From NCBI RefSeq assembly GCF_028735875.1, contig NZ_CP117834.1:3026001-3090000 (forward strand): a stretch of 64,000 nt of DNA, given 5' to 3'. The position numbers and the translations under genes were made by a program. Under the pieces are notes generated by a model. The model saw only the letters and a program-made list of their open reading frames with translations. It had not been told where the DNA came from and did no database searches. The DNA comes from Shouchella hunanensis. Its GTDB lineage: Bacteria; Bacillota; Bacilli; Bacillales; Bacillaceae_D. Of this stretch, positions 42,195 through 42,729 are shown piece after piece (position 1 is the first letter of the stretch; every line of letters starts with the position of its first letter).

Positions 42195-42225
42195 GTAATA
42201 AAAAAATCTATCATAAGAGAGATTT
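42195..42225 (-). terminator. Terminator of the paiA-like gene
   Basis: On the minus strand AAATCT and AGATTT around CTCTTATGAT, then a T tract. Confidence 0.7.
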
Positions 42226-42729
42226 GGACATAATTATGTCAGTTTGTTTTTCGTCACCCATAAAGAATGAATGACTTCCCGTTTGCGAGAATCCCATTTT
42301 TTGATAGAAGGCAATTGCATTATCATTTTCTTCCCAAACACCTAGCCAAACACTATGTTTGTTCTTATCTAAAGCAGAATTAATAGCAAAATTAAAGAGG
42401 TGTTTTCCGAGTCCATGTTTTTGAAAATTTTTCTTGATATAGATTCTTTCAATTTCGAGAGAGTCATTATCCATTGTTTCTGATTGAGCGTCTTCCGTAT
42501 TGATTTTTAAATAACCTGCAAGCTTGTTTTCATAAAAGAGAAAGTAAAAAGTTGAGAATTTATTAGACATTTCTTCGTTTAATTTTTCGAGAGTAAACGC
42601 CTTATTCAAATAGTCTTCCATGTTTTCAGGAGAATTTTGCTGTTTGAATGTATCGTTAAATGTTTCAATGCTTAATTCTTGAAGTTTTTGTAAATCATTT
42701 GATGTACATTCTTTTATAATTACTGACAT
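42211..42729 (-). CDS. paiA: PaiA-like GNAT N-acetyltransferase (spermidine/protease and sporulation regulator family)
   Basis: A 172-residue GNAT enzyme very close in pattern to B. subtilis Pai[41 protein letters not shown] (acetyl-CoA loop [10 protein letters not shown]), [20 protein letters not shown] and [16 protein letters not shown]. PaiA acetylates spermidine and was first described as a regulator of extracellular protease and sporulation genes. ATG 42729 is preferred over 42753, with GGGAG about 11 bases upstream. It is a minus-strand cargo gene between phage early and SSB genes. Confidence 0.86.

Follow-up and report, generated by a model that had tools for sequence, protein, structure and literature searches.

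The paiA gene described here is best read as a moron of a skin-like prophage inserted in sigK, wired to a host MarR repressor whose gene lies beside a GNAT/efflux pair, and judging from sequence I put the probability of this reading at about 0.6. The window, i.e. the whole stretch of 64,000 nucleotides that was analysed, is G000:C1:3026001-3090000 of the 4.06-Mb, one-contig host genome G000. The gene and the predicted control elements ahead of it are:

42211..42729, minus strand: paiA, predicted spermidine/spermine N1-acetyltransferase of 172 aa (NF053587, 1tiq)
42794..42811, no strand: 18-bp inverted repeat TTGTTGTATTTGCAACAA (minus strand TTGTTGCAAATACAACAA), predicted MarR-type operator from its recurrence ahead of paiA and marR
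42757..42785, minus strand: possible sigma-70 promoter TTGAAT-17-TAAAAT (consensus scan, 9/12), just downstream of the inverted repeat

Prophage PaiA scored 290.7 bits against the NCBIfam equivalog NF053587 (SpmdActasePaiA, cut-off 250) over residues 1-172 of 172, and its best PDB match was B. subtilis PaiA (1tiq), full length and ungapped with an E-value of 6e-75, which upholds the original prediction of a protein close to B. subtilis PaiA along its length. The control LcGNAT (8osp, residues 5-174), a canavanine enzyme, reached 218 bits on the same model and the protein of locus L022 reached 226, both under the cut-off. Glu92, Tyr97 and Tyr142 are reported to be important for LcGNAT catalysis (PMC10416765); E92, Y97 and Y142 are present in prophage PaiA and invariant in 17 PaiA sequences. 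The full-length equivalog score and the conserved residues place the protein in the PaiA family, and its acetyltransferase activity is a prediction. Its nearest relatives, among the best 80 of 107 matches, were 67% identical. Length, ungapped match, family and residues are those of B. subtilis PaiA; in contrast to the latter, prophage PaiA is phage-borne, lacks PaiB and has an operator immediately ahead of its gene. It is also the sole PaiA of G000 (next match 26 bits), and the genome thus offers no host copy of the kind that was to be included in a PaiA phylogeny. The enzyme itself is ordinary; what would make it worth a bench test is that the only copy lies in a skin-like prophage, behind an operator that a host circuit has in identical form.

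The inverted repeat TTGTTGCAAATACAACAA is located 64 bp ahead of the paiA start codon (a second in-frame ATG lies at 42753) and has, around 42794-42811, perfect 8-bp arms and a 6-bp middle. An identical 18-mer precedes the host marR gene (G000:C1:2402479-2402928), whose product is 67% identical to the paiA-linked MarR of G011, itself a Pfam MarR match, and has its best PDB relatives among SlyA-type regulators (1lj9 closest, then 4mnu). No exact stretch longer than the 18-mer is common to the cassette with paiA and the 20-kb locus of host marR. Masking the repeat left a longest shared stretch of 13, and shuffled cassettes shared 12.6 on average and 16 at most with that locus (n=50). Taken by length alone, the 18-bp match would be modest evidence; what gives it weight is that it stands ahead of a MarR gene of the appropriate family. 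The same operator stands before regulator and target, as in the marR-paiA(-paiB) operons of Bacillota with a SlyA-like MarR, which have both the operator and the target gene in common with the present case; unlike in those operons, operator and target are here on the prophage while MarR is encoded elsewhere on the chromosome. Operator identity suggests that host MarR regulates prophage paiA, and the 67% identity to a paiA-linked MarR that it would recognise the prophage operator. Hence it is probably the host, not the phage, that decides when paiA is on.

In G010, G011 and G008 the marR-paiA operons occupy a different position from the host marR locus. Divergent from host marR is a GNAT gene, with an EmrB-type MFS efflux gene next to it, and G005 and G001 have the same arrangement. 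In view of these neighbours, the simplest reading would be that prophage paiA responds to a repressor of host detoxification. Since host marR already has these neighbours to control, paiA need not be its missing partner.

How widely the operator accompanies paiA was evident from several scans. Among 100 regions covering the 200 bp immediately ahead of paiA, one of them from the window, 14 contained the 18-mer with up to 3 mismatches, compared with 0.1 expected from shuffled sequence; these were 6 Paenibacillus and 7 Lysinibacillus regions and the window. The exact 18-mer was found upstream of paiA in 14/99 other loci, and a wider scan showed that the repeats in most relatives precede a MarR-family gene directly ahead of paiA. 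The 99 PaiA loci include four pairs that are the same locus fetched twice, and L007-L025 have flanks of only 1.5 kb. Counting sites with at most one mismatch to a consensus within 900 bp upstream of paiA gave an operator in 84/99 loci, a marR gene directly upstream in 68/99, both in 66, an operator without adjacent marR in 18 and neither in 13; after removal of the four duplicates the figures were 82, 66, 64, 18 and 11 of 95. The consensus was drawn from the PaiA loci including the prophage one, and these counts describe the loci and do not test the operator. Two operators were present in 47 of the 68 loci with marR before paiA, one in 19 and none in 2, and over all 57 two-operator loci the spacing was 42-48 bp. 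Prophage paiA has one operator, as does host marR, and no adjacent marR.

A more independent check than the locus counts was a scan of 13 genomes of the genus, in which the consensus had 18 distinct exact matches: 15 of them immediately precede a marR gene, 2 fall within a trpF-like gene (G000, G060), and 1 stands before prophage paiA. The reversed pattern, used as a control, had 0 sites in the same 13 genomes. The four genomes without a site either do not encode this MarR (G002, G007) or have only a 52% relative (G006, G009; the G006 genome is 86% complete). G000 itself contains three sites in its 4.06 Mb, namely at host marR, at prophage paiA and inside the trpF-like gene, and across L026-L175 plus the window (about 2.05 Mb of overlapping loci) there were 131. 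A 20-mer version had a perfect match at the prophage copy alone and matched at five further places with one mismatch; it misses the host marR site, where the flanking letters differ, while the 18-bp consensus finds it.

The promoter assignment is less telling, with 4 promoter-like sites in the region vs 7.4 in shuffles, which is not above chance. The inverted repeat would lie upstream of the guessed -35 and not over the start site. A region scan found no terminator for paiA. As side observations, SlyA-like marR-paiA-(paiB) operons with one or two 18-bp operators were widespread in the fetched Bacillota loci (L028-L107), often together with a divergent yczE-like membrane gene. A MocR/YczE-type regulator of the repeat had been considered on account of this divergent gene (yczE model below cut-off); the candidate was dropped, as marR genes follow right behind the repeats, and a paper on yczE-linked MocR contained none of the operator terms searched.

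The prophage spans ~51.6 kb and splits sigK in frame. Its boundaries are:

29740..30105, minus strand: sigK C-terminal half (sigma-70 region 4; Pfam)
30103..30114, minus strand: 12-bp att core GAGATTCTAATG on the side of the sigK C-half, from the flank join
30115..64000, no strand: part of the prophage within the window, continuing to G000:C1 ~3107700
G000:C1 3106174-3107673, outside the window: large serine recombinase, beside the sigK N-half
G000:C1 3107697-3107708: second copy of the att core GAGATTCTAATG
G000:C1 3107670-3108044, outside the window: sigK N-half (sigma-70 region 2)

Joining the flanks at the 12-bp core GAGATTCTAATG restored a SigK frame of 236 aa that, compared position by position, was 93% identical to intact SigK of G009 from the same genus. 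Carriage of paiA by a sigK-interrupting prophage, as originally predicted, is borne out by this; the wording that the prophage "breaks" sigK was right about the interruption and too strong otherwise, both halves being intact and in frame. In this respect the prophage resembles excisable skin-type elements. It has in common with skin and other sigK-intervening elements the insertion in sigK, the large serine recombinase beside the N-half and the in-frame rejoining at a short core, and differs from them in having paiA as cargo and a tailed-phage gene set that includes structural, holin and amidase genes. Phage genes in the element encode Erf, a DnaC-like protein, SSB, terminase, portal, major head and tape measure proteins, besides the holin, the amidase and the recombinase, the last of which is 99% identical to that of G003. 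The frame of the sigK C-half had 138 aa in 3/13 genus genomes (G000, the same-species G060, and G003) and at least 242 aa in 10/13.

Within the prophage, paiA occupies the space between two conserved phage genes and is orientated opposite to the lytic genes:

41787..42173, plus strand: HNH endonuclease gene (Pfam HNH), left border of the slot
42844..42900, plus strand: 3' remnant of a small conserved phage ORF (...KIPGRVRKPLSDWEG), from the nucleotide match to related prophages
43071..43502, plus strand: phage ssb (phrog_44, 221 bits), right side of the slot

Six related prophage regions (L134-L139), taken from the stronger matches, were compared; many of the weaker matches covered the ssb stretch alone. 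HNH was 90-96% identical at the amino acid level in L134, L135 and L137 and 30-34% in L136, L138 and L139; ssb was present in L134 (51%), L135, L136, L138 (82%) and L139 (76%), and was not found in L137, though HNH is there. The order HNH then ssb held in 5/6 regions (L134, L135, L136, L138, L139), and none of the six had paiA behind HNH. The slot instead held a 354-aa ORF in L134 (G003) and L135 (G060) and a shortened form of it in L137 (G060, sigK site); in L136 (G060) and L139 (G011) HNH almost abuts a ~50-aa ORF with KIPGRVRKPLSDWEG or KLPGRVRKPLADWEG near its end, and the more distant L138 (G006) has a short gap without this ORF. The remnant in the window corresponds to the end of the ~50-aa ORF, with 98% nucleotide identity over 47-51 bp to L134, L135 and L136 and 85% over 41 bp to L139, and the rest of the small ORF has been replaced by ~665 bp carrying paiA on the opposite strand. 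Because none of the six regions carries paiA there, paiA is, on this comparison, a cargo gene in a variable slot, an extra gene at a place where it is missing from related phages. A 48-bp conserved stretch at 42843-42893 had been considered as an RNA hairpin element and was rejected, as it is the coding 3' end of the small ORF; a search of 29000-64000 against Rfam at gathering scores had no match.

Regarding the other slot content, the 354-aa ORF (L134 7665-8729, minus strand) had no Pfam or NCBIfam match and a weak PADLOC SspD match (E 4e-6). The same-species genome G060 contains two prophages, L135 and L136 (C1 ~1.28 and ~3.33 Mb), whose modules rightward of ssb match the window with equal identity and spacing; its third element, L137, is located in sigK and is partly related.

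The source of the cassette was approached through a tree, composition and searches. The tree comprised 96 of the 99 PaiA loci together with window PaiA, 1tiq and 8osp; L023, L024 and L080 had been excluded because of stop codons or insufficient length. Window PaiA sat on a branch of 0.87, compared with a median of 0.15, without a supported sister, and because of this a shift in its substrate is possible. Three forced clades (with a four-row genus group, with L007, and with L013/L094) were not rejected, at p-AU 0.54-0.78, in tests that left out L022 and 8osp and in which the free quick search missed the better tree each time. The tree thus names no donor. Composition leaves the origin unsettled too, because GC3 is host-like (0.277 vs 0.26-0.31 in eight host genes), yet the overall GC of 0.304 is below that of all eight host genes checked (0.362-0.415). 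The latter value is close to that of other paiA genes (0.306-0.359, seven checked). Among phage genes 14/18 had a GC3 of 0.355-0.527, and the other four, located at 47-51 kb, 0.25-0.32.

A phage origin of PaiA was considered and rejected. Searching phage records by tblastn returned 11 records (OR846721 and ten more), all below 60% identity and all unannotated; the one that was opened is labelled UNVERIFIED_ORG. It is probably host DNA filed as phage, because the contig carries a marR-paiA pair with operator. IMG/VR gave 0 relatives with the single PaiA protein and, with a 17-row alignment, 1 relative at 27% that is not PaiA, both being scans that rely on short exact motifs. Four plasmid records matching the cassette at 68-72% over part of its length proved to be GNAT genes, and the phi3T acetyltransferase, at 27% over 62 aa and without a match in NCBIfam, was likewise set aside. 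Proteins of this prophage family compared by blastp with the other PaiA loci gave 2 matches in 99 loci.

One could read the same data as the accidental capture of a host gene that serves no selected function and is on the way to decay. The arrangement of prophage paiA with operator was found in one genome only, the branch is long, and the insertion destroyed phage ORFs, all of which would agree with a passive passenger; against this, the frame is intact, full length and above the equivalog cut-off, and the active-site residues and exact operator arms have been kept. I consider accidental capture unlikely. The original prediction had also reckoned with chromosomal debris in a host lacking its own paiA. 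The host does lack one, and the debris part does not apply, because conserved phage genes flank paiA on both sides.

PaiA was found in 6/13 genus genomes including G000, the others at 57-64% identity to the prophage protein, and was not found in the same-species G060 nor in G003. PaiB (PF04299) had 0 matches in G000, with the B. subtilis positive control detected, so that paiB is not beside prophage paiA as in a paiAB operon; it was present in 4/13 genus genomes and, using one query, in 48/99 other PaiA loci. Spermidine is probably made by the host, because SpeE and AdoMetDC are each encoded in 13/13 genus genomes, and this makes the predicted effect on polyamine pools plausible. A further suggestion, that polyamines would be changed for DNA packaging, found no evidence, paiA and the lytic genes being on opposite strands.

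An effect of PaiA on sporulation timing is possible, and is weakened because PaiB is absent. In its specific form, prophage PaiA would lower spermidine in the lysogen, delay entry into sporulation and keep the prophage in growing cells. However, there is no PaiB in the genome, and the sole regulatory feature found is the operator of a MarR circuit and not a phage or sporulation element. No sequence feature that was found links paiA to sporulation, and the proposed link between sigK interruption and paiA is not supported by these data. Moreover, sigK acts late, in the mother cell, while polyamine effects would be on entry. What speaks for such tuning is the location of the prophage in sigK and a body of B. 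subtilis work: spermidine shortage upon speE deletion is reported to delay sporulation severely, PaiA is implicated in its negative control (both PMC5519356), and SPbeta, which interrupts spsM, a gene rejoined in sporulation (PMC4191935), also encodes a working spermidine acetyltransferase (PMC9992855). On balance, tuning of sporulation seems improbable as the role of the gene. That PaiA serves the phage by lowering free spermidine early in infection and weakening restriction or CRISPR, as the authors of PMC9992855 propose for phage spermidine acetyltransferases, is less probable still, since paiA, located amid HNH, ssb and DnaC-like genes in the early region as this would suggest, is antisense to the early operon, occupied the slot in 0/6 related regions, and had no PaiA-type counterpart in IMG/VR in short-exact-motif scans.

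Under the preferred reading, a moron under host MarR control, the paiA cassette has replaced phage DNA and brought along an operator of the marR-paiA type without the marR gene. In the lysogen, host MarR would repress prophage paiA until a MarR ligand, perhaps a polyamine or toxic amine, lifts repression of it together with the divergent host GNAT/MFS-efflux genes. PaiA would then acetylate spermidine or spermine with acetyl-CoA, resulting in less free polyamine or a detoxified amine. The benefit would probably be stress tolerance of the lysogen, with developmental effects secondary.

The enzyme class is not new. Working phage spermidine acetyltransferases have been described, including that of SPBc2 (SPbeta) (PMC9992855), and prophage PaiA resembles these enzymes of SPBc2, bIL311, phi-m46.1 and others in being a phage-carried spermidine acetyltransferase. 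In contrast, the queries of that survey were SSAT, SpeG, BltD and EfBltD, and the word PaiA is absent from its main text; the PaiA type and the wiring appear new. The open-access literature searched for a marR-paiA, PaiA/PaiB or YybA link yielded no paper on a MarR-PaiA circuit. If true, the reading would provide a clear, testable case in which a host repressor acts in trans on prophage cargo by way of a shared operator. The PaiA type is thereby added to the phage-carried polyamine enzymes, a group for which it is puzzling whether the phage pays or gains, and the 18-bp inverted repeat and marR-paiA are a MarR operator and its target identified by sequence and common to many Bacillota. A broader and more tentative proposal, to which I give somewhat less than even odds, is that the phage returns to the host a circuit's output gene, the chromosome having retained the regulator (MarR without paiA, and paiA with MarR's exact operator), making polyamine acetylation a lysogen-only trait run by a host sensor. 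As part of it, spermidine acetylation may have been acquired on two separate occasions by prophages that interrupt sporulation genes, SPbeta with its acetyltransferase and the present prophage with PaiA.

Some further genes were observed in and around the element. The early region of the prophage encodes a Type II DNA methyltransferase (window 34915-35664, plus strand), and a low-GC cargo stretch of the element contains a gene for a DUF2971 protein (window 50014-50910, minus strand) that matches the PADLOC candidate defence family PDC-S31 (E 1e-35). Close to the recombinase end is a PIN_12-domain protein (L026 17079-18029). About 3 kb past the sigK N-half, a gene encodes a collagen-like protein of 552 aa with long G-x-T repeats, recognised by eye (L027 6057-7715, G000:C1 ~3111-3113 kb).
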